From Muribaculaceae bacterium (GTDB lineage Bacteria > Bacillota > Clostridia > Lachnospirales > Lachnospiraceae), in assembly GCA_023666425.1 (NCBI GenBank), contig JAMPCA010000001.1, positions 1,158,570 through 1,222,569 on the forward strand: a stretch of 64,000 nucleotides of DNA, given 5' to 3'. Within the stretch, counting starts at the first letter, position 1, and each line of letters opens with the position of its first letter. The notes beneath the pieces are model-generated. The model was given only the letters and a program-made list of their open reading frames with translations, did not search any database and was not told the origin of the DNA. The position numbers and the translations under genes are program-made. Shown here piece after piece: positions 1,692 to 16,787 of this stretch.

Positions 1692-1746
1692 AATAAATGC
1701 CCTCCATATTGTTATTAATCTTATTTCTGTGTTTTCAGTTTTCTCT

Positions 1747-1839
1747 GTTTACACCGTTTACAAATAGATGTAATTCTTGATTTTTCAACACTTCTTTGTA
1801 AACCCACAGTTTACAAAAATGTAAACACACTCTGTAAAC
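1747..1839. repeat. GTTTAC/GTAAAC repeat array upstream of parM-like gene
   Basis: Six hexamers lie in 93 bp: GTTTAC at 1747, 1756 and 1809, and GTAAAC at 1798, 1821 and 1834. They fill most of the 181-bp gap between the VirE-like gene and the ParM-like gene. Iterated sites immediately upstream of a parM-type gene are the usual place for the centromere/operator bound by the adaptor. They could alternatively be iterons of a replication origin served by the VirE-like and CHC2 proteins. Confidence 0.5.
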
Positions 1840-1872
1840 AGAGTGAAAAAGAATTTAAAACGATAGTATCCG

Positions 1873-3216
1873 TTACTCCTTAAAAGGAATTTGTGCCTCA
1901 TTCGGCAATGGTGTAAATCCCTGCATATCAGTTTCACGCTTCCATCCACGCTGCAATCCATACTTGGTGAACCTGTGAGAGCTGATTTTCTCCCACCCGT
2001 CTATACAAGTATTCATAATACTGTTAATTTCCTTAATCTCCCATTGTTTCGGTTCCTCGTATTCATGCCGTAGCGCCTCCCTATAAATCATCTCACTGCA
2101 CACGTATTCTTCCGCACAGTCATCCAGCCACGCCTGAATAATCCCTACTTTCGTATCTTCCGGCATAAACTGTTTCTGCATCTCTTTCAGATATTCTTCC
2201 ATCTCTTTTGACAGCTTCAGCTCATGCGCACAGTTCTTATAAATAACCATTGCCTCCGCCCACGCTTGCACGATGTACTCCCTTGATTCCTTTTCGTCCT
2301 CAAGGATATGTTTTTCCACACGCTCCTGATGTACCAGAACAGGCGCAAATCTCCTGTTGCCCGTCCTATCCAACGGAAGAAAATCAAGATTGTTTGATGT
2401 GCCGACAAAGATACACTGTCTTGGTCTGTCCTCAGCATAAGCCTGATATGGAATACGGTATGTTTCTTTCTGCCTGCTCAGAAACGATTTAATATCTTCA
2501 ATACTCTTTGCATTGACAGTCGCAAGCATCTCTGACATTTCAATGATCCAATGCCCCTGCATCTTGCTGTAAACATTTTCGTCGTCCATACGCTTCAAAT
2601 CGTCCGTAAACCATTCATCATTAACAGCAAGGAAACGGAAGAATGTAGACTTTCCTGCACCCTGACCGCCTACAAGACAGACCATGATTTCAAACTTACA
2701 GCCCGGCTCATAAATCCGGCGAACTGCCGCCAGCATCAAAAGCCACATGATCTCCCTTGTATATTCATTGTCATCTGCACCGAGAAAGCGCGGAAGCAGA
2801 CTGTCAATCCTGCCTTTCCCATCCCATTGCAGATTTTCAAGGAAATCTCTGATAGGATGGTAGCTTTTTTCACTGGCTACGATACTGACTGCCTTATTAA
2901 TGGATTTATCACTGGAAATACCGTAATTTGTTTCTATGTAACGCTGGATCTGGTACATATCCACATCTGTAATGCCGCCCGCGTTCCTTTTCCAAAAAAG
3001 CGGCTTCACAATGTCAGTCTTATTTGTCAGTTCATTTTTACAGATGGCATCTTTCAGCACCGGATCCCTGTATAGAATCGTCATGCAGTTCTCAATGGAA
3101 GATTTTACATAACCTTTCTGCGTTCTCACAAGCGATTCCAGCACATCTTCTACCGTACTTATTTCCGCATCAAGTGCTTCCCCGACAGCATTCCATGATT
3201 CGTTTTCTGTCTGCAC
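1873..3216 (-). CDS. VirE-family P-loop ATPase/helicase-like replication protein
   Basis: About 447 residues. The central part is a virulence-associated E (VirE) type superfamily 3-like ATPase: Walker A VGGQGAGKST, Walker B-like HWIIEMSEM, sensor region CIFVGTSNN, then TGNRRFAPV. The N-terminal part contains the family's DFLENLQWDGKGRID segment. Chosen start: GTG at 3214-3216, just behind AGGAGAGG; a TTG five codons upstream overlaps that Shine-Dalgarno. It overlaps the CHC2 gene by about 47 nt, so the two are co-expressed. Known: VirE proteins paired with CHC2 zinc-finger primases replicate phages and integrative elements. Probably the element's replicative helicase. Confidence 0.8.
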   Translation of the reverse strand: MQTENESWNAVGEALDAEISTVEDVLESLVRTQKGYVKSSIENCMTILYRDPVLKDAICKNELTNKTDIVKPLFWKRNAGGITDVDMYQIQRYIETNYGISSDKSINKAVSIVASEKSYHPIRDFLENLQWDGKGRIDSLLPRFLGADDNEYTREIMWLLMLAAVRRIYEPGCKFEIMVCLVGGQGAGKSTFFRFLAVNDEWFTDDLKRMDDENVYSKMQGHWIIEMSEMLATVNAKSIEDIKSFLSRQKETYRIPYQAYAEDRPRQCIFVGTSNNLDFLPLDRTGNRRFAPVLVHQERVEKHILEDEKESREYIVQAWAEAMVIYKNCAHELKLSKEMEEYLKEMQKQFMPEDTKVGIIQAWLDDCAEEYVCSEMIYREALRHEYEEPKQWEIKEINSIMNTCIDGWEKISSHRFTKYGLQRGWKRETDMQGFTPLPNEAQIPFKE

Positions 3217-3862
3217 AAACCTCTCCTGCAATTTCCTCCACCTTCTTCCTGTCTTTCAAAAACAACTCCTGCCTCTCTGAAACTTCACCCATACACAGAA
3301 TATCCAGCCAATAGTTGATAAGCGGCTCTGCATGGAGCATCTGCGCATAATCATCCGAAAAGACTATATCCGGCGGCTTTCCAATCAGGAAATGACCTGC
3401 ACTGTCAATTTCCAAAATACAGTTTTTCAGTACGCCCACAGTCCGGTTACACCATTTTTCAAAACGCTCCTGAATATGCAGTATCCTCTCACATTCCGCC
3501 TTTTCCCTGCGGATGCGTTCCCTTTCCTGCACGCTTAATTCCGCATTTCCTTTTACATCAATCGGCAGACTAAATTCCTCTATCAGCTTTAATGCCGCAT
3601 CATACTGTGACAATCCAAACATACGGGAAACATAATCAACCGCATCTCCACCGACACCACAGGCAAAACAGTGATACTTCTTGTCAATCTTCATGCTTGG
3701 GTGCTTATCATCATGGAATGGACAACAGGCTAAGCCATTCCTTTTAACCTGCAAACCATAATATTCCGCCACCTGTCTTGCTGTCAGATATTCCTTTATC
3801 TCACTAAAAATGGACAAAATAATAGCTCCTTCCTTTGATTTTGGGTGCAGAAAATAATCCAT
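3170..3862 (-). CDS. CHC2 zinc-finger DNA primase-like protein
   Basis: A 230-residue protein with an N-terminal CHC2 zinc-binding domain: CCPFHDDKHPSM (about residues 47-58) and YHCFACGVGGDAVDYV (about 64-79), giving the C-H-C-C ligand pattern of DnaG-type primases. No TOPRIM catalytic domain is evident at this length; the rest is charged and helical. It is encoded immediately upstream of, and overlapping, the VirE-like helicase, a common primase-helicase arrangement in mobile elements. Inferred role: zinc-dependent template recognition and priming for element replication. The catalytic part may be supplied by another protein. Confidence 0.8.
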   Translation of the reverse strand: MDYFLHPKSKEGAIILSIFSEIKEYLTARQVAEYYGLQVKRNGLACCPFHDDKHPSMKIDKKYHCFACGVGGDAVDYVSRMFGLSQYDAALKLIEEFSLPIDVKGNAELSVQERERIRREKAECERILHIQERFEKWCNRTVGVLKNCILEIDSAGHFLIGKPPDIVFSDDYAQMLHAEPLINYWLDILCMGEVSERQELFLKDRKKVEEIAGEVCADRKRIMECCRGST

Positions 3863-3906
3863 AAAAATTTATGGAAATTTCTTTTGTCCCATTGTCGAAA
3901 GACCGA

Positions 3907-3949
3907 AGCTTTGCTATACTATATTTGCGGAATAGAGTATAGTAAAGCT
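3907..3949. repeat. Inverted repeat between integrase and replication genes (element 1)
   Basis: Arms AGCTTTGCTATACT (3907-3920) and AGTATAGTAAAGCT (3936-3949) match at 13 of 14 positions around a 15-nt loop. The repeat lies in the 96-bp gap between the integrase stop and the CHC2 start. Element 2 has a different inverted repeat at the same position (16712-16783) that also contains GCTATACT. It could be an attenuator, an origin hairpin or a recombination-module border; the thymine run expected of a simple terminator is lacking. Confidence 0.5.
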
Positions 3950-3958
3950 CTGCTTTCA

Positions 3959-5068
3959 TTACTCGGAGATGCCCTTGTTACCAGCAGGGGCATTTTCCTT
4001 ATCTTCACTTCCGTCAACAATTAGACGGTCCAGTAAAGATGCAACTTTTTTCTGTTCACTTGGATATAAGTGTCCATATGTATTAAGCGTGACCTTAATA
4101 TCTTTGTGCCCTAACCGTTCCTTAATGATCAGCGGCTGTACACCCTGCTTAATGAGGTAGGCGCAATGGCTATGTCTAAGAGAATGCACATCAATTTTCT
4201 TCACTCCTGCCTTATCAATATGCCTTTTCATGGTATGCTGCACTGCTTCTGCAACCACAGGAAATAATCTTTCATTTTTTGGATACTGATATAACCGCTT
4301 CCAATACGACTCTATTTCCTTTGCAAGAAACACAGGAATCTCTATTGTCCTCACTGAATTGTCTGTTTTCGGTTCCGTAATAATATCTACCCTGTTCATA
4401 CGATAATAGGTTTTTGTAATATGAATCTGGCAATTCTCTATATCAATATCTTCCATAGAGAGTGCGAGCATTTCACCTTCACGCATCCCCGTCCAAAATA
4501 AGAGCTGGAACATCAGATAAGAGCGGCTTCCCTTTTCAAATGTCGCTATGAACTTCTGATATTCCTCATATGTCCAAAAATCCAACCGTCTTACATCGGA
4601 ACGTCCTATCTTCTTTACCTTTTTGCAAGGATTGTTCCATAAGTTATAAATTTTCTGTGCGTGAGTAAATAGTGCGGTTACTTGATTCTGCAACATTCTC
4701 TGATAGCTTTCCGAAAAGTTCTTGTTGCGGATTTCATTCTGCCATGCAATAATATCCGCCGGAGTAATTTCATTCATTTTCTTCTCTCCAAGATATGGTA
4801 TTACATGGGTTTGTATCATGTATCGCTTATTCCGTTTTGAACGCTCTTTCAGTTCGCCGTCCTTGTCATTAAAATAAATATCCACAAAAGAAGCAACCGT
4901 CATATCCATATCGGCATTCGCCACACGCTTAAACTCACTTTCGTAATCCTGTGCCTCCTTTTTTGTCCGGAATCCTCTTTTGTACTTTTTCTTTCGTTTT
5001 CCCGTCCAGTCCTCATAATAGAACTGACAGTACCAGCTTCCACGCTCTGCGTCCTTATAAGCCGGCAT
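3959..5068 (-). CDS. Tyrosine recombinase/integrase of element 1
   Basis: A 369-residue phage-type integrase. It has an N-terminal Arm-DNA-binding domain (YKDAERGSWYCQFYYEDW), a SAM-like core-binding domain (about residues 60-160), then a catalytic domain with arginine in WTGMREGEM, HSLRHSH, LGHKD and the tyrosine in LNTYGHLYP. Start chosen at the ATG of MPAYK, behind GGGAGTGG; the GTG three codons upstream overlaps that Shine-Dalgarno. It is clearly homologous along its length to the integrase of element 2 (16788-17864), as expected for enzymes using the same tuf target. It sits 17 nt downstream of the excisionase-like gene. Confidence 0.93.
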   Translation of the reverse strand: MPAYKDAERGSWYCQFYYEDWTGKRKKKYKRGFRTKKEAQDYESEFKRVANADMDMTVASFVDIYFNDKDGELKERSKRNKRYMIQTHVIPYLGEKKMNEITPADIIAWQNEIRNKNFSESYQRMLQNQVTALFTHAQKIYNLWNNPCKKVKKIGRSDVRRLDFWTYEEYQKFIATFEKGSRSYLMFQLLFWTGMREGEMLALSMEDIDIENCQIHITKTYYRMNRVDIITEPKTDNSVRTIEIPVFLAKEIESYWKRLYQYPKNERLFPVVAEAVQHTMKRHIDKAGVKKIDVHSLRHSHCAYLIKQGVQPLIIKERLGHKDIKVTLNTYGHLYPSEQKKVASLLDRLIVDGSEDKENAPAGNKGISE

Positions 5069-5085
5069 ATTAACCACTCCCTTCT

Positions 5086-5289
5086 TTACAATACCGTTTC
5101 GACCTGCTTATTGCTTCCGTAAAACTTTGTTTCCCAAAACGCTCTTGGAACTCTGCCGGAAACTACAATAAATCCTGATTCTTTCAATTCCTGATTCAAC
5201 TCTTTGATGATTTTGTATGCATATCCTTTGGAAATTCCTAATTCTTCCGAAATATCTTCGGCATACATCATGTAATTGTTGTTTTTCAC
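5086..5289 (-). CDS. Excisionase-like helix-turn-helix protein of element 1
   Basis: 67 residues. A helix-turn-helix ISEELGISKGYAYKIIKELN is followed by a basic beta-wing with GRVPRAFWETKFYG. It matches the 64-residue protein of element 2 (17882-18076), which has the same fold and a GRIPRAYW segment. Start chosen at GTG 5287-5289, five nt after AGGAGGTG; this gives the same length as its counterpart. A longer frame reaches upstream to 5376 but lacks the ribosome-binding site. Directly upstream of the integrase, it probably acts as recombination directionality factor and/or autoregulator. Confidence 0.75.
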   Translation of the reverse strand: MKNNNYMMYAEDISEELGISKGYAYKIIKELNQELKESGFIVVSGRVPRAFWETKFYGSNKQVETVL

Positions 5290-5459
5290 TTTGCCACCTC
5301 CTCTCTTGATTTTTTGCAAGATATAATTGTTCGCTATTTGTATCTTGCTTGCATTTTTATCATACATGTTGTTCAAAATAATGTCAAGCTATTTTTGTTG
5401 ATATTTTTATATCTTTATGATAAAATATTGTTTGACGAAATTACAAGGGAGGTAATCAT

Positions 5460-6680
5460 ATGAATCTATATTCCATTAATACAATAAAACAAGGGTTTTT
5501 GTTCTATCCTCTTGTATACAATATTAAAAAATCAGATTATTCGGAATCACTTATATTGACTTATAACGACACAGACAGCAATACATACCAAGAAGTTTTA
5601 GGAACAAACCGTTCCATACTTTCTAATTGGTTGGAAATACTTGATTATGATACAGAAGCAAAGGAAACACTTGACAAGACTTTTGACCTACTATTATCGT
5701 CCATTCATTTGTTTGGAATAAAATCTGAAATGCCAAAAAATACTCTTGCCAATCAGATTGACAGCTTTATAAAAAGTTTTGACAGTAAAGTGTTTAGTGA
5801 TGTCGCAAGCTCTGTTCTGGACATTTTAAAAGAGTGCTTTGATCCGCACCCTGTACTCGCTTATCTTTATCCACACTACTACGCACTGCTCCATTCATTA
5901 TATCTTTACACTGAAAAAAACTGTTCTTATGAAGATATTAAGTCACAGTTTACAAAAAAAATGACAATCCTATTGCAAGAACTGCTACACTTAAAATCTT
6001 CTTATGAACAGGCAAAGGAATATACCCAATCCGTATTTATTGAACCATATGTCGAAAGCGCTTCTATACCAAGCACCACTTCGGCAGCCTTATATCATTC
6101 CTACTGTAAAATGCTGAATAAATCTAATTTTTATATGGACACATTTGATTTTCCGATTGCGGAGGATTATCTAAAAAATAATTTTGACAGTGATACACCT
6201 TCATGGAACTCTTATTTGGGATTATTTTCAGAAAAGTTGCTGGATGCAGATACACAGAACCATTATATAACATCATTTGCACAATTCCTCCATATCGGAC
6301 TATCCATTATGATGTCTGGTGAAATGGTAATTCGGAAATGCAAACTATGTAATGGGTATTTTCAGACCAAGCATTCTTCTGACCAGATGTATTGCAGCCG
6401 CATTTATAAAAATACTGCTGCAACCTGCAGCGAAGTGGGCGTAAGAAAAACTTATAAAGAAAAACTGTTCCAGCATCCGATTCATCAGGAATTTACCAAG
6501 TCCTACAATAAACTTTATGGGCGCATCCGACGCGGCAAAGTTCCAAACGATACGCCACTAATGAATGAATTGAAAAAGCTGCATGATGAATACACAGAAA
6601 AATATGAAAATACGCACAAGAAAGACCGAGAAGCGGTCTGGAAAGAATATATTCAGAAGAATAAGGAATTGCTTGGATAA
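5460..6680 (+). CDS. DUF6076-like protein, cargo of element 1
   Basis: A 406-residue protein behind a strong AGGGAGG Shine-Dalgarno. The C-terminal third holds a cysteine cluster CKLCNGYF...YCSR...ATC (about residues 297-324) that looks like a small zinc-binding region, followed by a basic helical tail rich in Lys/Glu. The N-terminal two thirds are alpha-helical and acidic with no motif I recognise. It resembles the DUF6076 proteins seen in clostridial mobile elements; their function is unknown to me. It is divergent from the integrase module. The 170-nt AT-rich gap between 5290 and 5460 presumably carries divergent promoters. Confidence 0.6.
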   Translation: MNLYSINTIKQGFLFYPLVYNIKKSDYSESLILTYNDTDSNTYQEVLGTNRSILSNWLEILDYDTEAKETLDKTFDLLLSSIHLFGIKSEMPKNTLANQIDSFIKSFDSKVFSDVASSVLDILKECFDPHPVLAYLYPHYYALLHSLYLYTEKNCSYEDIKSQFTKKMTILLQELLHLKSSYEQAKEYTQSVFIEPYVESASIPSTTSAALYHSYCKMLNKSNFYMDTFDFPIAEDYLKNNFDSDTPSWNSYLGLFSEKLLDADTQNHYITSFAQFLHIGLSIMMSGEMVIRKCKLCNGYFQTKHSSDQMYCSRIYKNTAATCSEVGVRKTYKEKLFQHPIHQEFTKSYNKLYGRIRRGKVPNDTPLMNELKKLHDEYTEKYENTHKKDREAVWKEYIQKNKELLG

Positions 6681-6735
6681 AATCATTAAATGCTAGAATA
6701 TTTTCAAAAAAATCTCAAATTCTGAAAATTGGGGA

Positions 6736-6763
6736 TTGACAGTAAGTAAAAATATGATATTCT
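6736..6763 (+). promoter_or_regulatory. Probable sigma-A promoter for the 6820 gene
   Basis: TTGACA (6736-6741), a 16-nt spacer and TATTCT (6758-6763) lie in the gap before the nucleotidyltransferase-like gene. A second possible -10, TATAAT, follows at a spacing too long for the same -35. The gene therefore appears to be transcribed independently of the DUF6076 gene. Confidence 0.5.
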
Positions 6764-6819
6764 ATAATGATACATTCATTAAGATTGTATGGAGGCATGG
6801 GCGAAAGGAGATATAATAT

Positions 6820-7467
6820 ATGTATGAATATGTAAAAAAATCCGAGTATGCCCCTGTCAGAAAAGAGCTTGAACAGATTATTAAGCGTACTCAAATTGAA
6901 ATGCGTAAAAACTATGGAGTAAAATTCCAATTCCATCTAATCGGAAGCGGTAAAAAACACCTTGTTACCAGAATTAAAGACGGAAACAAAGGATATGATT
7001 TCGATTATAATTTAATTCTTTCCCCTCCTAGCAATGGCTATCATTATGATCCAAAGATTATCAAACAAAATTTTATGACTGCTTTAAAAACGGCCCTACA
7101 AGGAACAAAATACTCATTTCCAAAGGATTCAACATCTTCTATCACGATAAAAGTTTGGGACAAAGACAAAAAGAAAATAAACTACAGTTGTGACTTTGCC
7201 ATTATCTATTATGGAAGAAACGGCAACAATGACGGCTATTATTATCTTAGAAACAATAAAACGCAACAGTCCTATCAATTTGTCTTTCGGACATTATCAT
7301 CTGACATAGATGAAAAAGTTCACGATATTATTAAGGATAATTGCTGGTCTTACATAAAAGAAGAATATCTTTACCTAAAAAATATCAACGAAGGAAATAA
7401 AAAGCATTCTTTTTCCTTATATGCTGAAGCAGTCAACAATGTATATAATCAGATGTATCTTCAATAA
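6820..7467 (+). CDS. Nucleotidyltransferase-like (Pol beta fold) protein, cargo of element 1
   Basis: 215 residues behind GAAAGGAG. Residues 38-66 contain HLIGSGKKHLVTR followed by YDFDYNLIL, matching the Gly-Ser ... Asp-x-Asp pattern of the Pol beta nucleotidyltransferase superfamily. A candidate third aspartate is in YSCDFAIIY (about residue 128). The C-terminal part is helical. Members act as tRNA/NMP transferases, MNT-type antitoxins or nucleotide-second-messenger synthases; the sequence alone does not say which. No HEPN toxin or obvious effector is adjacent. It sits against the attachment site, where cargo genes usually lie. Calling it a nucleotidyltransferase is motif-based inference. 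Confidence 0.5.
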   Translation: MYEYVKKSEYAPVRKELEQIIKRTQIEMRKNYGVKFQFHLIGSGKKHLVTRIKDGNKGYDFDYNLILSPPSNGYHYDPKIIKQNFMTALKTALQGTKYSFPKDSTSSITIKVWDKDKKKINYSCDFAIIYYGRNGNNDGYYYLRNNKTQQSYQFVFRTLSSDIDEKVHDIIKDNCWSYIKEEYLYLKNINEGNKKHSFSLYAEAVNNVYNQMYLQ

Positions 7468-7555
7468 CACTCTACAGTAAAAAGAAGACTTTTATCATTT
7501 CCCGAATATTTTAGAAGCATTATAGAAGCACAAGTGACTTGCAAAACTGTTTTTT

Positions 7556-7592
7556 ACTCAAAAAGGCTTTCGAGGGAATCCCCGAAAGCCTT
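7556..7592 (-). terminator. Intrinsic terminator behind the stranded tuf tail
   Basis: Arms AAGGCTTTCG (7563-7572) and CGAAAGCCTT (7583-7592), with inner GGG/CCC, read on the minus strand into TTTTTGAG. It lies 23 nt past the stop codon of the duplicated tuf tail. Its position corresponds to the terminator at 18901-18938 behind the functional tuf. Confidence 0.85.
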
Positions 7593-7614
7593 GATTTTAC
7601 TGAATAAATTATAA

Positions 7615-7668
7615 TTACTCGATGATAGACGCAACCCTGCCAGACCCAACAGTCCTGCCACCCTCACG
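7615..7668 (-). pseudogene. Displaced tuf 3' end (17 codons plus stop) carried by element 1
   Basis: Read on the minus strand, this encodes [17 protein letters not shown] and a TAA stop. The functional tuf ends [17 protein letters not shown]. The codons before the shared block (above 7668) do not match tuf at all. This is therefore not a decayed gene copy but a 3'-end cassette that once completed tuf when element 1 was next to it. Insertion of element 2 into the shared core separated it from the rest of tuf. Confidence 0.9.
7640..7668. other. Attachment site between elements 1 and 2 (att core, 29 bp)
   Basis: 29 bases identical to 18997-19025; similarity extends about 8 bases further on the stop-codon side with one mismatch. 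It marks the right end of element 1 and the left end of element 2. The other side diverges immediately (7669 onward is element DNA, whereas 19026 onward is tuf), which fixes the crossover region within this block. Confidence 0.88.
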
Positions 7669-7771
7669 ATACTTTAATAGCATTTTTTGCGGTATTTTCT
7701 ATGCTTTTTATTGTGGAAAACGGCGTAAAATCGTTGTTTTCATGTGGCTTATTTTTATTTGCATAATTTCT

Positions 7772-7789
7772 TGGCACCGTTTTGGCACC
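7772..7789. repeat. Sub-terminal 18-bp repeat, left end of element 2 (possible integrase arm site)
   Basis: TGGCACCGTTTTGGCACC, itself two TGGCACC copies, lies about 104 bp inside the left att core. An identical copy lies about 123 bp inside the right core (18857-18874), in the same reading direction. Sub-terminal repeats at both ends are what arm-type integrase or Xis binding sites look like. The rest of 7669-7904 is AT-rich with no gene seen. Confidence 0.55.
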
Positions 7790-7904
7790 AAAAAATAACT
7801 ATTACCATATCTCCTCGATATATACATAGATTTTCTAAATAGTATTAGCCAATTAGAAGCTGCCGAAATACACAATTCCATTTTAAATCATACAATAAAC
7901 AAGC

Positions 7905-9782
7905 CTACCTATATATACGCACATAACAAGTTTTCCTTTTGCTTTCAAATGAATTGATATACTCCCTATCTTCAACTATAGCCCTATCTGGATCATATAC
8001 TATAAACATTACTCCATATTCGTCTGGTATTTCTGTAATATCAGCAGCAATACCAACACTTGCAACTGATGGAGACGTACTCTTACGAATATATTTTCCT
8101 TCTATAAGCAAGTTTTCTTGTGACAAATCTGCTCGATAGTTTGTAATTCCAAACTTAATTACTGGAAATTCACGACTAAACTCTTTTTTCGCAGCTCCAA
8201 GCAATGCTTTTATTTTATCATTCATATCATTCTCATTTTTAGGTTTATCCGAATGAAACATAATTGATATGTTTTCTTTAAGAATTCTATCAATTTCCGC
8301 AACTCGTATATCCATTGGTGTCTTTAAATATTCTCTGTTATCTATCATATCCAAAAAAGAATTTTTTTCAACCTTCTTTCTTAAATTATCATTCTTCATA
8401 CGCATAATACTCGTTGCACGCAAAACAGAATCTCCATATCTCATAAACAAATCACATATTTCATTCATATTATCCTCAGCATTTTTACCCGGCCAAAATT
8501 TTAAAAGTGATGTCATCTCTTCTGGGTATTTTTTATACAACTCCATTGGAGAATTATATTCTTCCATACAAGCCAAGCGAAGTGTATTATATAATCTCTG
8601 CACAGTTTCCTTTCCAGGATTGGACAAAATAAAATCATTAGCATATGGAGCATCAAATTCGTCAAGATTCGCTGCATACATCGCAAAACGCCGATCAATA
8701 CATTGTGAACAGCATCCACAATGTGGTGCCATGCCCGGCTTATTTCGAGTAGAACTACAAGAAACCGCACTCGCCATTAAGTCTTTTTCTCCAAACTCTA
8801 AAAATTTCTTCACTATATCTTCTTTAGTTTTATTATAATATGGTGCTTCAACCAGAAAATCATTATCAAAAAAATGAAAAATCTTATTCATTAGACCTAA
8901 TGTTTTCGGGTGTGTCGTTCTACTGGCGCGCGCATTTATAACATCTGTCTGTGTAGGCAAATTGATGCTTGTAATACCATTTTCATATATATAAAATTTT
9001 TTCTTTCCTATACTGTGGCATATAGAAAATGCTATTGCGGAGAACAAAAACATTCTTGTTCTCTGAGTTTCCTCTTTACTAACCATTCCACAATTATTGC
9101 ACTGAAACCCATAGTCAATTAATCGATTTGGATATTTCTGATTAAGGTACTCTATTATATTTCTTTGAGTATGAATTACAGAATTATTTGCTTTATGACT
9201 AACGATAAGAAGCCTTTTATCCAAATCTGTATTAAGCCGTTCTATTACACCAGCAAGAGAATCTAAGCCACCTGAAAAAAGCATTACATCTACATTCTCA
9301 TTATCTCCAATTCGCTCCGCTTCGCTATTAAATATAGATAACTGTTTATAATCTTTTTTCGGTAATAACCCCTCTGTTGATTTTTCAAATACAAAAGTAT
9401 AACTGCGATCACCTGTCATAAAACATAACGCATCCGAAAGTGCTTTTTTCAAACTGCTATTTTCCCAAAAATCAATATCTAAAACAGGTATATGAAATTC
9501 AAAACTACGTGCCCAAGCATCATTACCTAAACTTGTTCTTTCTCCTCTATTAACTTGCCGATCTGCACAAAAAACCATTGCAGCAATATACAAAAAATCT
9601 AGGATACGAGAAGGCAGTGTTTCTGGATCATTAACAAATTTATCATAACCAATAACAATATTCTGTTCCAAGTCATTGCAATCATAATTTATCAGGTTTA
9701 TTTCCTCTGATTCACATTTATCAGAATGACACAATTCTCCACAATATACTTGAACTAGCTTAAGAGGCTTATTATCTATCAT
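7905..9782 (-). CDS. QueC/QatC-like deazaguanine enzyme with predicted C-terminal PD-(D/E)XK nuclease domain
   Basis: 625 residues, against about 220-230 for housekeeping QueC. Seen: PP-loop ATP-pyrophosphatase motif MLFSGGLDS (residues 167-175), RTRMFLF (241-247), ENGITSINLPTQ (267-278), SRTTHP (287-292) and zinc ligands C342, C355, C358, C361 in HCGCCSQCIDRRFA. These are shared with the defence-associated QatC/Cap9 branch of QueC. About residues 515-625 look like a DpnII/MboI-type restriction fold: N-E-N-D-M start, YRADLS (D552), LLIEGKY (E561, K563), then VMFIVYDPDRAIVED. Its start overlaps the stop of the upstream gene by 11 nt, so the two are coupled. Inferred: it transfers a 7-deazaguanine group to its partner's N-terminus and carries its own nuclease. 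The nuclease call is motif-based. Confidence 0.8.
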   Translation of the reverse strand: MIDNKPLKLVQVYCGELCHSDKCESEEINLINYDCNDLEQNIVIGYDKFVNDPETLPSRILDFLYIAAMVFCADRQVNRGERTSLGNDAWARSFEFHIPVLDIDFWENSSLKKALSDALCFMTGDRSYTFVFEKSTEGLLPKKDYKQLSIFNSEAERIGDNENVDVMLFSGGLDSLAGVIERLNTDLDKRLLIVSHKANNSVIHTQRNIIEYLNQKYPNRLIDYGFQCNNCGMVSKEETQRTRMFLFSAIAFSICHSIGKKKFYIYENGITSINLPTQTDVINARASRTTHPKTLGLMNKIFHFFDNDFLVEAPYYNKTKEDIVKKFLEFGEKDLMASAVSCSSTRNKPGMAPHCGCCSQCIDRRFAMYAANLDEFDAPYANDFILSNPGKETVQRLYNTLRLACMEEYNSPMELYKKYPEEMTSLLKFWPGKNAEDNMNEICDLFMRYGDSVLRATSIMRMKNDNLRKKVEKNSFLDMIDNREYLKTPMDIRVAEIDRILKENISIMFHSDKPKNENDMNDKIKALLGAAKKEFSREFPVIKFGITNYRADLSQENLLIEGKYIRKSTSPSVASVGIAADITEIPDEYGVMFIVYDPDRAIVEDREYINSFESKRKTCYVRIYR

Positions 9783-10554
9783 GTTCAGCCTCCCTTCTCA
9801 ACTCCTCGCGCATTTTCGCAAATGAAAGGGTCAAAAATGATACCATCTCATCATGTGATGGTGCTGAATTAACAGCATATTTATTAAACCAGCCAGCTGC
9901 AAAAGACTGCATTAACTTTGATATTTCAAAAGCATGATCAGCTATAGAACTCGCTTGTTCTGTAAGCATTTTTGTAAAATTATCTAATTGACGATAATCA
10001 TTGATTGACGATGCTGCTTCACGTTCTACATAATACTTTATTTGCTTGTCAGTAAAAACAGCAAAAAATGAACGTGCCATTTCACAAAATGCTGCACCTG
10101 TCCCAGCATTTACAAATGGACTTCTATTTTCTCCACAAAAAAGACTTAATTGTCCATCATTATGATTTTCATAATACTTAATAATTGACTGCATAGCAGC
10201 GTCTTTTGCCAACTTATTAATTTCACAAGATCCCTGTTCAACAGAAATATACTCCTGCGCACTTGAAACCAAGGACAACAACGACATTTCTTCATCAACA
10301 TCGTATCCATTACTATTTAAATATGCAATTTGATCCGATTGCTTTGCTGAAAAAGCCAAATTTGCCAAATATGATATCGCTTTAATTATCGACTCATCAT
10401 ATGGCAATATTTCATATGTATTCCGAATAGCATCTAATGTATTATTAGCAATTTGAAGAACTACATCTGAATCTCCGCCAAAAAGAGACAAACTTTGCAC
10501 TATACTATTCCATTGTTTTGTATGTGGCAAAAAGCCTATGCGCACATGTCCCAT
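9772..10554 (-). CDS. Met-Gly partner protein of the QueC-like enzyme (unknown family)
   Basis: 260 residues beginning MGHVRIGFLPHTKQW, mostly alpha-helical. I recognise no enzyme motif. The start is well fixed: GGAG lies 8 nt before the ATG. Gly2 means the Met should be removed, exposing an N-terminal glycine. Known: in type IV CBASS, and by relation in Qat, a QueC-like enzyme is reported to attach a 7-amido-7-deazaguanine to the N-terminus of a partner protein. The 11-nt overlap with the QueC-like gene fits an enzyme-substrate pair. Inferred role: the sensor or modified subunit of a two-gene defence module. It is not a CD-NTase by sequence. Confidence 0.6.
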   Translation of the reverse strand: MGHVRIGFLPHTKQWNSIVQSLSLFGGDSDVVLQIANNTLDAIRNTYEILPYDESIIKAISYLANLAFSAKQSDQIAYLNSNGYDVDEEMSLLSLVSSAQEYISVEQGSCEINKLAKDAAMQSIIKYYENHNDGQLSLFCGENRSPFVNAGTGAAFCEMARSFFAVFTDKQIKYYVEREAASSINDYRQLDNFTKMLTEQASSIADHAFEISKLMQSFAAGWFNKYAVNSAPSHDEMVSFLTLSFAKMREELRREAEHDR

Positions 10555-10678
10555 GTAACCAACTCCATTTTACAATAAATATTTCTTCTCTTGCTTTCTA
10601 TCTCTTATTATAATTTTCCATTACAAAATAATTCCATTACACAAAATAATTCAGTTTTATTTACATTTCCCAAAAGTT

Positions 10679-11596
10679 TTATCTCGGCCCCAAAAACTTA
10701 TCCCCATTCAAATGTATCATATGTTCCGGTATTTCCGCAATCCAGACTTCCGTTTCCCATGCCAATGTTTCCGAAAACCTCTTATACGTCTTAAAATCCA
10801 AAAACGCTGTCACAAAAATTTTCCCTGCTGCTACATTTTTTGTCATCTCTGTTAATTCCAATATCCTTTTGGCATCCATCGGTCCAACAGAAGTCACCGA
10901 TTCCACAAAATAAATCCAATCCTTATCTCCCCTATACAAAACCACATCCGGCATCTTATCATGTAATGTAATTTCAAACCCCAATTCCGTCAATTTGTCT
11001 ACATTCTTTACCAAGTCCTTCTCTATGGTATCCCCAACATATAAACATTCCGAATTTGGAGCAAACCGAGGGGCAAATTCCTCAATAATAGCCTTTTGCA
11101 GCTCATTATGCTTGCCTGCTGAAAACTGAAAATCAAGTCCGTTAATACGCACCGGCATCATTGTCATCTTCTTTTTAGACGCATACATATCCACCAGTTT
11201 TTCATGGTATGCCAAAAAACGATTTACGGCTTTTTGCCATTCCGATGTCTGAAATGCCCTTATCGTCTGCAATGCTTCTTCCGTAAGCCTATACCTATAA
11301 TTAGGGCTGTTCGTGGCTTCGCCATTATCTTCAACCAACGCTGCCGTCCGAAAATGGTGTAATGCCTGCTTGCGAAATGTTTCCCTGCTGTTCTCTGCAT
11401 AGGTCACTCCATAATTTATATTGGCAAATTGAATCATATCGTGAATCCGAATCCACGCATTATCCGCATCCGACCAGTCCATATCCGGCTTTATGCCTGC
11501 CATTGCCAGCAAAACCAGACAGCAAATATCTGCCTGCTGCGCTTTAGGCATCCCAAGCATTTTCAAAACTTCTCTTGCTTCGTCAATTTTATCCAC
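10679..11596 (-). CDS. BsuBI/PstI-family type II restriction endonuclease
   Basis: 305 residues. The N-terminal helical domain contains YAENSRETFRKQALHHF, a hallmark of the BsuBI/PstI family. The C-terminal catalytic domain contains YVGDTIEKDL, MPDVVLYRG, WIYFVESVTSVGPM and KIFVTAFLDF, again family signatures. Family members cut CTGCAG, although specificity should be tested. It overlaps the methyltransferase gene by 8 nt (translational coupling, methyltransferase first), which ensures that protection precedes cleavage. The length is normal for the family, with no frameshift. The 124 bp downstream (10555-10678) are AT-rich with no gene. Confidence 0.9.
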   Translation of the reverse strand: MDKIDEAREVLKMLGMPKAQQADICCLVLLAMAGIKPDMDWSDADNAWIRIHDMIQFANINYGVTYAENSRETFRKQALHHFRTAALVEDNGEATNSPNYRYRLTEEALQTIRAFQTSEWQKAVNRFLAYHEKLVDMYASKKKMTMMPVRINGLDFQFSAGKHNELQKAIIEEFAPRFAPNSECLYVGDTIEKDLVKNVDKLTELGFEITLHDKMPDVVLYRGDKDWIYFVESVTSVGPMDAKRILELTEMTKNVAAGKIFVTAFLDFKTYKRFSETLAWETEVWIAEIPEHMIHLNGDKFLGPR

Positions 11597-13115
11597 AGTA
11601 CCCCTCCAGTATCATATTACAGCTATTCTCCGACATATCTTTGCTGTTCATCAGTTTTCTTCCCATTTCCTGTATGCTCTCCAAATCCGGCACCGGCATA
11701 GAATTGATCTCCGTAGAATTGACCTGCGTAGAACCATTCAAAATCCGATAGTATTCGTCATACAATGTCGAATTAAATAGTACATACAATCCATATACAA
11801 GGCACTCCGACATCTCAGACAGCAGCCCATCCACAAAATTTATTTTATTCTGCGTACTTATCTTTGTATATTGCGGATAGTTTTTTGACAAATACACTCC
11901 ACACTGCAACCTACGACGTTCCTCTTTTGCCGTAAATCGCTTCACAAACAAATAATTCCGATTCTCCTGCAATAACCCCCTCTGATTTGTCACCACATAT
12001 TCATGCTCTTTTTGAATCGGGAACTGCACCTTCCCCTGCCGAATATGCTGCGAATAAAAGAGCGGTATCGCCCCTTCTTCTTCTGTATCCCGAAGAATTT
12101 CCCGATTGCGAAAATCAACAGTCAGCCCCGTTTTCATCTTCAACCCAATATCTGGCAATGTTTTGTCAAACTGATGAAGTTTTTCCAAAACATCAACTTC
12201 CTCCTGATTTGTTACCAAATATACATAGTAATCCTTGTCCGAAACCACCAGATTGTATGGCACGCTTAAAGACATCAAATCAGCAAAATCATGATTGGAT
12301 TCCGAAGACGTAATCGTAACCCTCTCCGGCTCTTTTGCTGTCTTCTTCACTTTAATAATGATTGTTTCCTGCAGCACCTGTTCCTTATCAAAGACCTTGT
12401 TCCGGCTTACAAACAAATGAACATGCTCTAATTTCCCTTCCGCAAGAAAATATTCACGGAATCTTTTAAAATATGCTCCCGAAGTCCAGGAACGAGGGAT
12501 AATATAGACCATCTCCCCATTCTTTTTCAAATTAAAAAGCCCCATTGCCGCAAAAATAAAATACATATTTGGCGCACCATAACATACATCCGGCATCGCT
12601 TTCGCTTCCGGCGCATCTTTTGAGATCTTCATATAAGGAGGATTGCCAATCACAAAATCAAATTTCTTTGGATCGGGATTTCCGCCAATCATATAGTTAA
12701 AATCCAGATATTGGCTCATAATATAATTATCAGTCAACACATGGATTGACAACTTTTTTGAAGAATGTTCCCTGCAATATTCCAAGTTACTATATAAAAG
12801 GGGCAATACATTCTCATCATTTTCATAGCAGGTTAGTTCTATTTCTTCAACTGTCGCAATTGTTTCCATGTATTCAATAAATGCACACGACAATATGCCC
12901 GACCCTGCTCCGGCATCTAACACGCTGATTTTCGACATATCCTCTGGAATATGATATAGCCCCGCCATAAATTGGGCTGTTTCCTTGCTTGTAAAGAACT
13001 GCCCATATTTTTTACGTTCTTTCTTCGGCATATCTTCAATATACTGATTTGTCAATTCAATAACTTTTTCTAGCATTTCTATCCCCGCCACGATTTCCAA
13101 TTTTGTTACCATCAT
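11589..13115 (-). CDS. Adenine-specific DNA methyltransferase (M.BsuBI/PstI type)
   Basis: 508 residues. SAM-binding motif VLDAGAGSGIL (about 46-56), catalytic NPPY in DFVIGNPPYMKIS (about 137), and the family's KYGQFFTSKETAQFMAGL (about 36-53 from the first Met). This is an N6-adenine gamma-class methyltransferase whose C-terminal half acts as target recognition domain. It partners the adjacent BsuBI/PstI-type endonuclease, so the likely target is CTGCAG. Start uncertain: the first ATG has no clear Shine-Dalgarno, whereas an ATG at 13076 is preceded by GGGG. A palindrome at 13212-13235 upstream may regulate it. Confidence 0.9.
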   Translation of the reverse strand: MMVTKLEIVAGIEMLEKVIELTNQYIEDMPKKERKKYGQFFTSKETAQFMAGLYHIPEDMSKISVLDAGAGSGILSCAFIEYMETIATVEEIELTCYENDENVLPLLYSNLEYCREHSSKKLSIHVLTDNYIMSQYLDFNYMIGGNPDPKKFDFVIGNPPYMKISKDAPEAKAMPDVCYGAPNMYFIFAAMGLFNLKKNGEMVYIIPRSWTSGAYFKRFREYFLAEGKLEHVHLFVSRNKVFDKEQVLQETIIIKVKKTAKEPERVTITSSESNHDFADLMSLSVPYNLVVSDKDYYVYLVTNQEEVDVLEKLHQFDKTLPDIGLKMKTGLTVDFRNREILRDTEEEGAIPLFYSQHIRQGKVQFPIQKEHEYVVTNQRGLLQENRNYLFVKRFTAKEERRRLQCGVYLSKNYPQYTKISTQNKINFVDGLLSEMSECLVYGLYVLFNSTLYDEYYRILNGSTQVNSTEINSMPVPDLESIQEMGRKLMNSKDMSENSCNMILEGYCG

Positions 13116-13145
13116 ACCATATAAACACCCAATTTTCTACAAAAA

Positions 13146-13235
13146 TGTGGCAGCCTGTCAATTTTTCCTACTTTCAGACTGCCACATAAATCCTTTCCCT
13201 GTTTGCCTTATTTACATGACGCTAGCGTCATGTAA
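13146..13235. promoter_or_regulatory. Stem-loop and 24-bp perfect palindrome upstream of the R-M operon
   Basis: TGTGGCAG (13146-13153) pairs with CTGCCACA (13179-13186), extended by an inner CTG/CAG. Next comes a perfect 24-bp palindrome at 13212-13235 whose half is TTACATGACGCT. Both lie in the 180-bp gap between a broken gene and the methyltransferase start. No controller-protein gene is present. Possible roles are operator, transcription terminator of the relaxase operon, or recombination scar. Confidence 0.5.
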
Positions 13236-13297
13236 GAAATAATCATCGAAGGAAATATAATTTCAAATCGAAGCGTTTGTCTCTACTATTGCTGTTG

Positions 13298-13612
13298 TTA
13301 CTTTACAAATCCCCTTTCTAGCTTATCCCGCTGATTTTTCAACTCATTCTGCTTTTCATAAAGACTGTTCCGCTCTTTACACAATTCCTTCATTCGTTCC
13401 AGCTTGTTCCTAATCCCCTCCCGACATTCCGGCTCTATCTTTTTATATTCGCCTGTCAGATTACGGATTGTGCTGTTGTTCTGCTTAATCTACTCTGAAA
13501 TGCAAATCCAGTCAATCAGGTTTCGCACTTCCGCATCAACATCATATAAATCCGTTTCCGTCAAAATCTTTGCACATAGCCGCACCATTACTTGTTTCTC
13601 TGTATCTGTCAT
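13298..13612 (-). pseudogene. Small element gene interrupted by an in-frame TAG
   Basis: Reading from ATG 13610-13612 gives MTDTEKQVMVRLCAKILTE... for 39 codons, then TAG, then an open frame of about 64 codons rich in Lys, Glu and Asn (KLERMKELCKERNSLYEKQ) to TAA at 13298. Both halves read like one charged, coiled-coil-forming small protein of about 104 residues. A single base change would restore it. It lies 9 nt from the next gene upstream in the relaxase operon. No function is recognised. Confidence 0.6.
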
Positions 13613-13621
13613 ATTCTACCC

Positions 13622-13990
13622 TCAACTTTCATATCTGAAAAATTCCCTTGCCAACGCTTCTGCCATACTCTTGCTATATCCCTGTTTCAGATACCCTTGA
13701 ACAATCGTTCCAAACGTATTCTTTACCATATCCGCCTCTATATCGCAGTATGCCTGCATTTCCCCCGACAGTGCCATTACAACATACTCTATCGGCTTGT
13801 CATCTAACAATTTATGCAGCTTGGCCAGCGACTGTTCGGTGACATTCAGATGTGCTTCTACTTCCTCGCACTTTATACGCAAGATGTTCTTATCTGTAAA
13901 ATACACCTCCACATAGCCATTATCCATGTTATACTCGCAGCTTGCAATATTCTCTACAGAATACATTCCTTCCCAATTTCTGTTATCCAT
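13622..13990 (-). CDS. Hypothetical element protein (DUF6061-like N-terminus)
   Basis: 122 residues behind AAAGGA. The N-terminal part (ASCEYNMDNGYVEVYFTDKNILRIKCEEVEAHL) is a beta-rich stretch resembling DUF6061-type small proteins of clostridial mobile elements. The later part has PIEYVVMALSGEMQAYCD, also seen in that family. The C-terminus (YLKQGYSKSMAEALAREFFRY) is helical. It is encoded 15 nt after the relaxase gene, so it probably belongs to the mobilization operon. Function unknown. Confidence 0.5.
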   Translation of the reverse strand: MDNRNWEGMYSVENIASCEYNMDNGYVEVYFTDKNILRIKCEEVEAHLNVTEQSLAKLHKLLDDKPIEYVVMALSGEMQAYCDIEADMVKNTFGTIVQGYLKQGYSKSMAEALAREFFRYES

Positions 13991-14005
13991 CCTATCAATC
14001 CTTTC

Positions 14006-15376
14006 TCATCTGCTAATTCCATATGTTCTGTTACGCTGTTTTTCTTTTTGTGCAATCCGTTCCAATTCTCTTGCATTTGTTATAATCGCATCAATTTTAT
14101 CCGCTCCGGCATATCGTTTCACACGTTCAAAATCATCCGCCTTTTCCTGTAACTGCTCCAATTTTGAAGATTGCTGGTGTATCCTAACTTTATAAAACTC
14201 TACGTCTTTTGTCTGCTTTGTAGTTTTTTCCTTCAGTTTCTTGTTTTCTTCTGTAAGTCTGACACACCTTATCGTAAGGCTTTTTACCGTATCTTTCAGC
14301 TTTATCACAAGCGGCGCTGCGTTTTTCTCCCGGTAAGATTTTGCAGTCATCAGCATACCTGTCTCCGGCAACTGCCATTTGGCATCTTCATCATAGATAT
14401 GTACGTTGCGCTCCATGGTTTCCTTAGACTGCGCCATTTTATTGATTTCCTTCTGTAATTTTCTCTGCTGCTGCTCCAATTCTCCATTATCGGATAATAA
14501 CTTTTTTCTGCTTTCAATCAGTCCGTCCGTTTCCTGCCTCAGCAGAACATTTTTTGCAGAAAGTTCTGATACTTCCTGCCTAATCGCATCGCCTTCGTTT
14601 TTCATCCGCTCTGTTTCTTTCTCTGCTAAAATCTGCTGGCTGACAATCTCGGACAGCTCCGCCTTTCCATCAAGCAATGCCTGATCCAGTTTTGCAACTT
14701 CCTTTTCCCGCTCCTGTTTCTTATAATTAAGCACGGAAAGATGTTTGTTATGTGTCCCCAGGTGTTTCCACTGTATCCCATACCGCCCCATCACCTTTGA
14801 AAGCTCCTGCTTCTCTGACTCTATCCACTGGTTCCATTCTGATTCGCCCCTGCTGCCGCCGTGGAATCCCTGCGCCGCTAACGCTCCCTTTAATGACACC
14901 CTTGTGTCAAGCCCCCGTTTACTGCCGCAGATAAAGGGAACAAAATCAATGTGGACGTGCGGCTTTTCTTCGTCCATATGAAGATACGCTGAAAATACAT
15001 ACAGATGCGGGTTCCTCCGCTGAAAATCCTGCATAAAATCAACCAGTATTTCTTTTGCCAATTGTCCGTTTTCACTTCTCGCATTCATATCGTCCTTATT
15101 GCCAATCTGCAAAATCACTTCATGGAATGGCTTTTCCTGTTTGCCGCGCTCAATCTTTTTATAATAATCGTCTATTTTTCTGTCATTGCGTTTCTGTTTC
15201 GCATTGTATCTTTCCAACGCATCATCAAATAATTTGTGATACACATCTTTGATATTCTCCTGGCAGAACTCCACATTGTATTTTGTCCGTGTGCTGTCTA
15301 TGTGCTTTGCATGAAATCTTCTTTTGTTATGGTTCTCCGAACCTTTTCCCATCATGCCGCTAATCGTTCTTTCCAA
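14006..15376 (-). CDS. MobV-family (Mob/Pre) relaxase
   Basis: 456 residues. The N-terminal nuclease domain carries the three-histidine metal motif in HMDEEKPHVHIDFVP (about residues 132-146) and an upstream RTKYNVEFC segment. The C-terminal 230 residues are a long coiled coil (ERMKNEGDAIRQEVSELSAK and similar). Start TTG at 15374-15376, 8 nt behind AGGAGG. Known: MobV relaxases nick at oriT next to their gene and pilot the strand into a recipient using a conjugation machine supplied in trans. The hairpin-rich region directly upstream (15431-15562) is the natural candidate for its target. Confidence 0.9.
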   Translation of the reverse strand: MERTISGMMGKGSENHNKRRFHAKHIDSTRTKYNVEFCQENIKDVYHKLFDDALERYNAKQKRNDRKIDDYYKKIERGKQEKPFHEVILQIGNKDDMNARSENGQLAKEILVDFMQDFQRRNPHLYVFSAYLHMDEEKPHVHIDFVPFICGSKRGLDTRVSLKGALAAQGFHGGSRGESEWNQWIESEKQELSKVMGRYGIQWKHLGTHNKHLSVLNYKKQEREKEVAKLDQALLDGKAELSEIVSQQILAEKETERMKNEGDAIRQEVSELSAKNVLLRQETDGLIESRKKLLSDNGELEQQQRKLQKEINKMAQSKETMERNVHIYDEDAKWQLPETGMLMTAKSYREKNAAPLVIKLKDTVKSLTIRCVRLTEENKKLKEKTTKQTKDVEFYKVRIHQQSSKLEQLQEKADDFERVKRYAGADKIDAIITNARELERIAQKEKQRNRTYGISR

Positions 15377-15430
15377 TAAAAATACCTCCTGCTTTATTTA
15401 TTTTTTAGTGCCAGATACAGCACAGGCTTT

Positions 15431-15562
15431 GTTACTTTCCCGAAAGTAACGCAAAAGCGCTTTTGACAGGCTGCGCTCTATCAAAAGCGCCTTTGCGCCC
15501 TGCCGGGAGCTAGCTGTCCGCTGGACAGCTTACCGTCCTACGGACGGAGCGGCTTTCGCCGC
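15431..15562. repeat. Hairpin cluster next to the relaxase gene, candidate oriT of element 2
   Basis: Five consecutive inverted repeats: GTTACTTTC/GAAAGTAAC (15431-15450), GCGCTTTTGA/TCAAAAGCGC (15457-15490), AGCTGTCC/GGACAGCT (15512-15530), CCGTCC/GGACGG (15533-15547) and GCGGC/GCCGC (15549-15562). They fill the non-coding gap upstream of the MobV gene. MobV origins of transfer are typically short hairpins just upstream of mob. The TGTCC-N3-GGACA palindrome recurs in element 1 at 61-75. Confidence 0.55.
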
Positions 15563-15591
15563 CTTTCTGCCGTTACTATCCGGCTTTCTCC

Positions 15592-15696
15592 CAACAGCGC
15601 AACATTGCAATGTCTGTAATCTTTGCAACCTTGCAATCTTCAAGAACGCAGTTTCAAGACTGCAAATTTCTAATACCCTGCATTGTTGCGCTGTTG
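15592..15696. repeat. 18-bp inverted repeat with TTGCAA-type iterons, candidate replication origin
   Basis: CAACAGCGCAACATTGCA (15592-15609) is the reverse complement of 15679-15696 with one mismatch. The 69 bp between them contain repeated TTGCAA/TTGCA units. It lies between the RepA-like ATPase gene and the candidate oriT. Iterated short sites inside a larger inverted repeat beside a helicase-like gene suggest an origin, but a terminator or recombination site is also possible. Confidence 0.4.
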
Positions 15697-15710
15697 CCTT
15701 GCTCTGTCCG

Positions 15711-16688
15711 TCACTGTCTGATTTTATCCAGTTCCCAATACCATGTATTGTTAATCCGCTTTGCCCGGATGCCTAATTCTTTCTTCGCGTTTTCCAGTGT
15801 CCGTTTTGATATGCCCTGTTCGTCTGCCAGATTGAAAACCTCATTGCTCTGTATGGCATTGTTTGTTTCTGCCAGTTCCCGGAGCAGCCGCTTTGCCTGT
15901 TCCATCTTATTTATTTTAGGAACAATACCGCCTAGCACTTCATCAGCCGTAATCTCATAATCCCCAAGCCACCTGAAACCCTCCTCTGACAGTGCAAACG
16001 CTTTCGGATGCCCAAATGCCGCTAAATTATTTTTTATCTGAATAACCGCCCTGATATTCGGCTCACCCTCTACCCTGCCGACCAATAGCACGCTTCTTGC
16101 AACCGCAAAGAAGTCTATAGAACCCATGCCCCGATATGCCGCTTTATTGCCCGCCGCCTTGTTCATATGCCCGACAAGGATAATCGCACATTGATACTTT
16201 TCTGCTAAGACCGCCAGCTTTTTTGTCATATCCCTTGCTTCGTTTGCCCGGTTCATATCCATGCCGCCGCCCAAATAAGCCTGTATCGGATCTAAAATCA
16301 ATAGCTTTGCTTTTGTCCTTATGACTGCTTCTTCCAACCGTTCATCTATCATGGAAAGTGATTTTATGCTTTCATCAATAACTGAAATATTTTCGCAGTC
16401 TGCCCCTGCCTGTTCCAAGCGCGGCTTTATCGTATCGGAAAGACCGTCCTCTGCGCTCTGATAAATCACATTCAGAGAATCCGTCAGTTGCATCTCACTG
16501 TCTATACCCACTCCCCTTGATAATTTCGCCGCTATGTTCAGCACAAGCGTTGTCTTTCCATCCCCCGGATCTCCTTGAATGATTGTCAGCTTTCCATAAG
16601 GGATAAATGGATACCACAGCCAGGAAACTTCCTGCGACTGTATCTCTGACATTTTAATCAACTGTAATTCTGTTTTCGTTTCTTCCAT
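15711..16688 (-). CDS. RepA-like AAA ATPase (AAA_25, hexameric helicase family)
   Basis: 325 residues. Walker A in IIQGDPGDGKTTLVLNIA (about residues 38-55), Walker B in AKLLILDPIQAYLG, then the RecA-core sensor segment AIILVGHMNKAAG and RGMGSIDFFAVARSVLLV. This is the profile of RepA/RSF1010-type replicative helicases and related AAA_25 ATPases of mobile elements. A winged-helix-like C-terminus (NEVFNLADEQGISKRTLENAKKEL) may bind DNA. Start chosen at ATG 16686-16688, five nt after TGGAGG; an in-frame ATG four codons upstream overlaps that Shine-Dalgarno. It replaces, in position, the CHC2/VirE/ParM module of element 1. Confidence 0.8.
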   Translation of the reverse strand: MEETKTELQLIKMSEIQSQEVSWLWYPFIPYGKLTIIQGDPGDGKTTLVLNIAAKLSRGVGIDSEMQLTDSLNVIYQSAEDGLSDTIKPRLEQAGADCENISVIDESIKSLSMIDERLEEAVIRTKAKLLILDPIQAYLGGGMDMNRANEARDMTKKLAVLAEKYQCAIILVGHMNKAAGNKAAYRGMGSIDFFAVARSVLLVGRVEGEPNIRAVIQIKNNLAAFGHPKAFALSEEGFRWLGDYEITADEVLGGIVPKINKMEQAKRLLRELAETNNAIQSNEVFNLADEQGISKRTLENAKKELGIRAKRINNTWYWELDKIRQ

Positions 16689-16711
16689 AATGTCCTCCAT
16701 TTCTGAAAATC

Positions 16712-16783
16712 GTTGCCACTGGAAGAAACCTCTGCTATACTTAATTTGTATTTATTTGGTAACAGAGGTTTTCCAGTTGCCAC
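16712..16783. repeat. Inverted repeat between integrase and RepA-like gene (element 2)
   Basis: The arms share ACTGGAA and AACCTCTG: GTTGCCACTGGAAGAAACCTCTG region 16712-16734 against CAGAGG...GCCAC at 16763-16783, about 20 paired positions with small gaps. The loop contains GCTATACTTAATTTG. It occupies nearly all of the gap between the integrase stop and the RepA-like start, the same place as the inverted repeat of element 1. Confidence 0.5.
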
Positions 16784-16787
16784 AGCC

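Follow-up and report, generated by a model that had tools for sequence, protein, structure and literature searches.

Two adjoining genes in the window, the whole 64,000-nucleotide stretch of DNA analysed here, raise the question of what a QueC-fold enzyme does when it carries a candidate nuclease and is coupled to a partner protein that starts with Met-Gly. A first-pass annotation, made from the sequence alone, had read the pair as a conjugating enzyme of the QueC/QatC kind bearing its own nuclease, by analogy with enzymes that attach a deazaguanine to a partner's N-terminus. The closest known system is Qat, in which QatB and QatC by themselves protect against some phages, a protection that is lost with G2D or PP-loop mutations (passages cited from PMC13279940).

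A QatC-type enzyme overlaps its partner gene

The window pair is real: both open reading frames were confirmed where the annotation had placed them (Table 1). According to the ORF list of the window they share 11 bases (9772-9782), an overlap that suggests translational coupling of partner and enzyme. The enzyme matched the PADLOC QatC model with an E-value of 1.2e-54 over residues 57-374, NCBIfam QatC (NF041925) at 200.8 bits, under the equivalog cut-off of 280, and canonical QueC (TIGR00364) at 21.4 bits against a cut-off of 150. Its PDB matches were QatC chains only (9vlk and 9zee). All the motifs that the annotation had listed are present, namely SGGLDS at residues 170-175, ENG at 267-269, SRTTHP at 287-292 and the cysteines C342, C355, C358 and C361. 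In a 24-member alignment of enzymes, S170, G171, G172, D174, S175, E267, N268, G269, R288, T289, H291, P292 and the four cysteines are invariant, and L173 and T290 vary. The QueC cluster 2 motifs SGGxDS, D(x)4R, WxR, RxRxxxF/Y, ExG and HP occur in 24/24 aligned enzymes, as do P(x)4TK and CGxCxxCxxRR except at P314 (23/24) and the second R (22/24); the R-W and C-C spacings are unlike published ones. Judged by these motifs, the core is a QatC-type ATP-pyrophosphatase. From the QatC structure in PMC13279940 (passages cited) we infer that the extension following the core, at residues ~376-487, would be the partner-binding region.

Table 1. The module and adjoining features, by position in the window
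Feature	Coordinates	Strand	Basis or remark
Partner protein, 260 aa	9772..10554	-	ORF starting MGHVRIGFLPHTKQW; remotely QatB-like at best
QatC-like enzyme with C-terminal predicted nuclease tail, 625 aa	7905..9782	-	PADLOC, NCBIfam and PDB QatC matches
N-terminal extension and QueC-fold core, residues ~1-375	8658..9782	-	SGGLDS, ENG, SRTTHP, CGxCxxC
Extension, residues ~376-487	8322..8657	-	Kept across tail types in BLAST and global alignments
C-terminal predicted DpnII/MboI-like PD-(D/E)XK tail, residues ~500-625	7905..8285	-	D552, E561, K563, D581
BsuBI/PstI-type restriction enzyme and adenine methylase	10679-13115	-	Directly upstream of module
ORF, 215 aa	6820-7467	+	GS...DxD pattern, nucleotidyltransferase-like by eye
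Mobile-element-like stretch	303-17864		PHROG matches to a partition protein and a helicase-like ATPase

The pair is rare but widespread

Scanned by pattern with a three-row alignment of partners, a collection of genomes from 84,980 species yielded 34 loci among 79 candidate stretches. In all 50 loci assembled, window included, a QatC-like ORF adjoins the partner gene, some of these ORFs being broken or cut by a contig end. Enzyme and partner thus co-occur as the annotation would have it, at least when searched from the partner side; five truncated partner remnants that lack an enzyme (L017, L074, L075, L090 and L096) were left out of the 50. In one of these remnants (L017:5585-5701), the orphan N-terminus MGHERVGILPKTQRW runs into stop codons; it lies upstream of genes that by eye resemble a Cmr type III CRISPR operon.

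Genome samples gave a measure of frequency. Enzyme matches were found in 7/250 genomes of the window's family, its own included. The other six are ordinary QatC, open frames of 442-464 aa that matched only over residues 52-399 and that by eye sit in qatABCD operons. Among 398 genomes of the window's phylum there were five matches: its own, genome G588, in which the enzyme is split over two frames, a remnant of the N-terminus in G421 and two further, weak matches. Samples of three other phyla (those of G660, G650 and G665) gave matches in 6/337, 5/301 and 7/294 genomes, and a Leptospira noguchii plasmid carries a tailed pair at 31% and 35% identity. From these counts, the pair is rare, on the order of one or two per hundred genomes, yet it occurs across many phyla. 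Viral contigs (IMG/VR) searched with the 34-member partner alignment A5 returned a single locus, L069, in which the enzyme ends after 277 aa; single-sequence scans of viral contigs found no relative, and the partner had no match among phages. Weak partner matches in G462, G629 and G193 (E 0.006-0.2) were set aside as probably due to chance.

The partner has a conserved Met-Gly start

Searches of Pfam, NCBIfam, PHROG and PDB found nothing for the window partner, and PADLOC gave a single weak match (E 0.018). Its start is strongly conserved among relatives, with the consensus MGHxRxGxLPxTxxW. Partner starts could be read in 46 of the 50 loci (34 in A5 and 12 others), and every one of them begins MGH. 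The Gly2 on which the annotation had relied is therefore kept in 46/46, with the reservation that starts were chosen by a pattern requiring Gly at position 2, so that independent support comes from the conserved block behind the start. Within A5, M1, G2, H3, R5, P10 and W15 are invariant and the start codons are 31 ATG, 2 GTG and 1 TTG; among the 12 other partners, L071 lacks R5, L072 lacks P10 and L097 lacks both R5 and W15. QSFAAGW is also invariant in A5, a conservation that is partly selected because this was one of the two search patterns.

We compared the partner with QatB by profile alignment. With 31/46 readable partners against 12/13 QatB, hhalign gave a probability of 23.6% and a score of 31.9, whereas controls reached no more than 18.1 with 20 column shuffles, 16.3 on reversal and 16.2 with six unrelated alignments; smaller sets gave 3.1% and 0.9%. 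P10 and W15 recur together in 2/12 aligned QatB, the short-tailed L023 and L102, and in 43/2,966 distinct M-started 15-mers from long ORFs of the fetched DNA. Five of those 43 do not begin MGH; they include the L023 QatB (as L008) and a Labrenzia partner, L104. The latter is a 187-aa protein that has Ser at position 2 and keeps P10 and W15; on a Labrenzia plasmid (L104:2276-5390) its gene forms a three-gene set with those of an SDGMDS-bearing QueC-like enzyme and an XRE regulator. By sequence, any kinship of the module partner with QatB is remote at best.

The gene pair could also be a toxin-antitoxin-like unit, in which the fused effector is toxic, the partner restrains it and phage defence is secondary. 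The overlap of the genes, their mobile-looking surroundings, a plasmid copy (L002) and an enzyme beside the partner in 50/50 loci would all fit this. Against it, the conserved tail of the partner resembles that of QatB, and QatB and QatC are known to work as a defence unit (PMC13279940, passages cited). We think a toxin-antitoxin role unlikely, though compatible with the sequence.

The enzyme carries interchangeable C-terminal tails

Residues 515-624 matched the Pfam family PF18742 (DpnII-MboI) at 26.4 bits, 0.6 below the cut-off of 27. Across the 24 aligned tails (alignment A4) the match is general, at E <= 0.01 in 24/24 and 4.7e-12 at best, and D552, E561 and K563 are invariant. These three residues align with the D..ExK of three ORFs without a QueC core, 270-323 aa long, which the tail profile recovered along with G665 itself from 334 genomes of the G665 phylum. 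The nuclease that the annotation had proposed is thus borne out as a prediction: the tail is predicted to be a DpnII/MboI-type PD-(D/E)XK nuclease, which differs from the Pfam family in being fused to a QatC-like enzyme. Against the PDB, the tail profile gave one match (mS76, E 0.026), which we set aside as chance-level.

The fusion is not unique to the window, and the nuclease is one of several tails. Across the 50 loci, 29 tails are DpnII-like (24 by Pfam; L016, L027 and L042 by phmmer; L088 and L089 by profile), two are TIR (TIR_2; L044 and L055), two are trypsin-like proteases (Trypsin_2; L026 and L028), 14 are other or unassigned and three are unreadable (L031, L036 and L069). The 14 comprise eight Pfam-scanned loci without a tail match above the cut-off (L034, L049, L051, L054 and L070-L073) and six (L091-L095 and L097) without a match to the nuclease tail profile, the sole test applied to them. 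By eye, L026 and L028 keep a His-Asp-Ser triad, and the L049 tail resembles another PD-(D/E)XK. L070-L073 and L092-L095 form a divergent subfamily; their enzyme ORFs measure 699-951 aa, and inspection by eye shows a possible winged-helix-like and helical region common to their tails.

Similarity between enzymes with different tails ends at about residue 455-500 in 8/9 cross-type BLAST pairs, the exception being L034/L054, which are similar up to position 545 of the L034 ORF; same-type pairs aligned to the end (4/4). When tails were forced into global alignment, identity was 9-25% between types (four pairs) and 46-50% within a type (three pairs). A tree of 42 partners places the trypsin clade within a nuclease clade on starred branches (98/91 and 99/96); long branches that meet drew a warning from the program. 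Tail labels need 8 changes on this tree, the minimum possible being 7, and the starred branches alone force 3 changes of the nuclease label. Taken together, these comparisons suggest a conserved pair that is fitted with interchangeable killer domains across phyla. A single core bearing nuclease, TIR and protease tails is the usual pattern of defence effectors, both by established knowledge and in PMC12799240 (passages cited).

The range of tails bears on whether the enzyme is instead a modification-dependent or stand-alone restriction factor, whose tail cuts DNA constitutively while the QueC core binds or senses nucleotides without conjugation. A DpnII/MboI-type tail next to BsuBI/PstI restriction-modification (R-M) genes invites that reading, which leaves the conserved partner N-terminus unexplained. 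Moreover, because TIR and trypsin tails share the same core, restriction is unlikely as the common function, and we rate the restriction-factor explanation as very improbable.

Genomic setting and relation to Qat and CBASS

As the annotation had noted, BsuBI/PstI R-M genes adjoin the module and the surrounding stretch looks mobile; by eye it also holds two integrase-like ORFs and one relaxase-like ORF. The 215-aa ORF on the other side had no NCBIfam, PADLOC or PHROG match and a sub-cut-off Pfam match to FlaG (13.6 bits). Neighbours of L024-L057 were surveyed through the 99 longest of 138 neighbouring ORFs, a scan that missed one 274-aa ORF. Among the matches listed (25 of 295 PADLOC, 25 of 103 Pfam) are N6 methylases, PglZ, AbiEii, type I/ISP and IIG R-M and CAP12-type TIR, recorded here as occurrences, together with metabolic proteins such as sulfatases. 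At L028:4237-5842, a DUF6088 gene and an AbiEii toxin gene lie immediately upstream of the trypsin-type module.

QatA and QatD profiles matched 0/50 module loci, most of which span 3-17 kb (the window 64 kb), versus 6/6 Qat loci. Because the QatA profile was built from those six Qat loci and the QatD profile from five, the six-locus match is a positive control only in part. The absence of the Qat A and D (TatD) genes claimed in the annotation is upheld by this result, but the statement that the window has no AAA ATPase was too strong, since 15711-16700 encodes a helicase-like ATPase (PHROGs), though not QatA. No CD-NTase was found among the seven window proteins scanned with profiles, the partner included, and to that extent the claim of a window free of CD-NTases stands.

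The module resembles Qat in several ways. Both enzymes have a common QatC-type core with N- and C-terminal extensions (QatB-QatC, PDB 9zee and 9vll; PMC13279940, passages cited) and share SGGxDS, RxRxxxF/Y, ENG, (S/T)RT.HP and CGxCxxC; in both systems the partner gene lies directly upstream with an overlapping start and encodes an MG start with Gly2. Unlike Qat, the module is not a four-gene qatABCD system, its enzyme has a fused C-terminal effector, whereas the family's six QatC lack a tail, and its partner begins MGH rather than the MGTS of QatB. In the passages cited from PMC13329287, qatA and qatD adjoin about a third of QatC-cluster genes. Type IV CBASS (Cap9 with a CD-NTase) likewise sets a QueC-fold enzyme beside a protein with an N-terminal glycine, but Cap9 is short (~185 residues; PMC13329287, passages cited), the module partner has no CD-NTase match, and the Tyr/Asp that read 7-carboxy-7-deazaguanine (CDG) are replaced. 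A conserved core with a swapped domain is also seen in CBASS, Avs, pAgo, Lamassu, Hachiman and trypsin-nuclease pairs (PMC12799240, passages cited), whereas the core here is QueC-type. The two trypsin-type loci differ further from the pairs of PMC12799240, in that an MBL nuclease gene directly upstream was sought beside the trypsin tails and found in 0/2 loci.

A host-made deazaguanine is unlikely in this strain

The annotation's proposal that a deazaguanine is conjugated to the partner can be examined in the active site and in the host. In P. aeruginosa QatC, Thr278 and Thr280 stand in place of the CDG-reading Tyr/Asp (PMC13279940, passages cited). Counted on the PDB alignment, they fall on window Ser287 and Thr289; position 287 is S or T in 24/24 aligned enzymes (S, replacing T278, in 22 and T in 2) and position 289 is T in 24/24. 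The window's genome (98% complete) yielded no FolE and no PTPS/QueD, and its only QueC-family matches were the enzyme itself and a 38-position match in a 361-aa ORF. For QueE the best match was 24.6 bits to one subfamily model, a test of little power, since the cut-off is passed by no named control genome and a likely QueE of G646 reaches only 38 bits. In G588, a single contig, there was no QueD and only two short N-terminal QueC-family matches, in ORFs of 372 and 386 aa. Nor was full-length QueC found in 3/5 Qat hosts (G088, G193 and G223).

Deazaguanylation as in type IV CBASS would have the enzyme join CDG to the partner Gly2, the base coming from host or phage metabolism. Cap9 does so in CBASS (PMC13279940, passages cited), the MG start of all readable partners would suit it, and a QueD-family gene is present in 24/33 host genomes examined, a set that left out the hosts of L002, L027, L036, L051, L069 and later loci. 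Set against this are the negative searches for FolE, QueD and a separate QueC in the window's host, with at most the weak QueE-type match, the similar picture in G588 and the replacement of Tyr/Asp by Ser/Thr, and we judge deazaguanylation to be of low probability. Because no FolE, QueD or separate QueC was found and the active site is of QatC type, deazaguanine conjugation is unsupported in this host, and a host-made deazaguanine is unlikely to be the attached group in this strain; other hosts may supply one.

A candidate switch for a fused effector

The reading that we favour as probable is a QatBC-like anti-phage (or anti-mobile-element) module whose killing domain is fused to the enzyme. 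Removal of Met would allow the partner's glycine tail to enter the enzyme active site, where, on the model proposed for QatB, an ATP-dependent reaction would modify the partner covalently. While bound to the partner, the enzyme may hold its tail domain idle until infection alters the complex or its modification state, releasing or clustering the tail so that it cuts DNA. In relatives the same switch would drive a TIR or trypsin-like protease. The attached group is probably not a host-made 7-deazaguanine in this strain. Of the first-pass reading, the QatC-like enzyme, the predicted nuclease tail, the MG partner and the R-M neighbour remain, and deazaguanine conjugation finds no support in this host.

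The annotation had called the architecture possibly undescribed, and we found no published description of a QueC or QatC fused to a TIR, nuclease or other effector in the literature searched, with preprints outside its scope. In the passages cited, PMC13329287 describes no effector fused to QatC, PMC12799240 reports trypsin-like proteases fused to other defence enzymes, and the QueC passage of PMC10952713 lists only qatABCD and type IV CBASS. We tentatively raise the possibility of an undescribed two-gene immune class spanning many phyla, in which a QueC-fold enzyme would modify the partner Gly with a group other than host-made 7-deazaguanine, possibly phage-supplied, and so gate an interchangeable fused effector.

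The pair is real, conserved and more general than the annotation saw, and the biology proposed for it is drawn by analogy. For Qat itself, the passages cited from PMC13279940 report no obvious QatB active site and no catalytic motif in the QatC extensions, and leave the reaction unresolved. The module could help to show how QatB and QatC act against phages when QatA and QatD are missing. It displays a candidate effector that can be swapped, and nuclease, NADase or protease assays could therefore read what a QueC-type switch puts out; because the host has no detected 7-deazaguanine pathway, the identity of the attached group can be tested.
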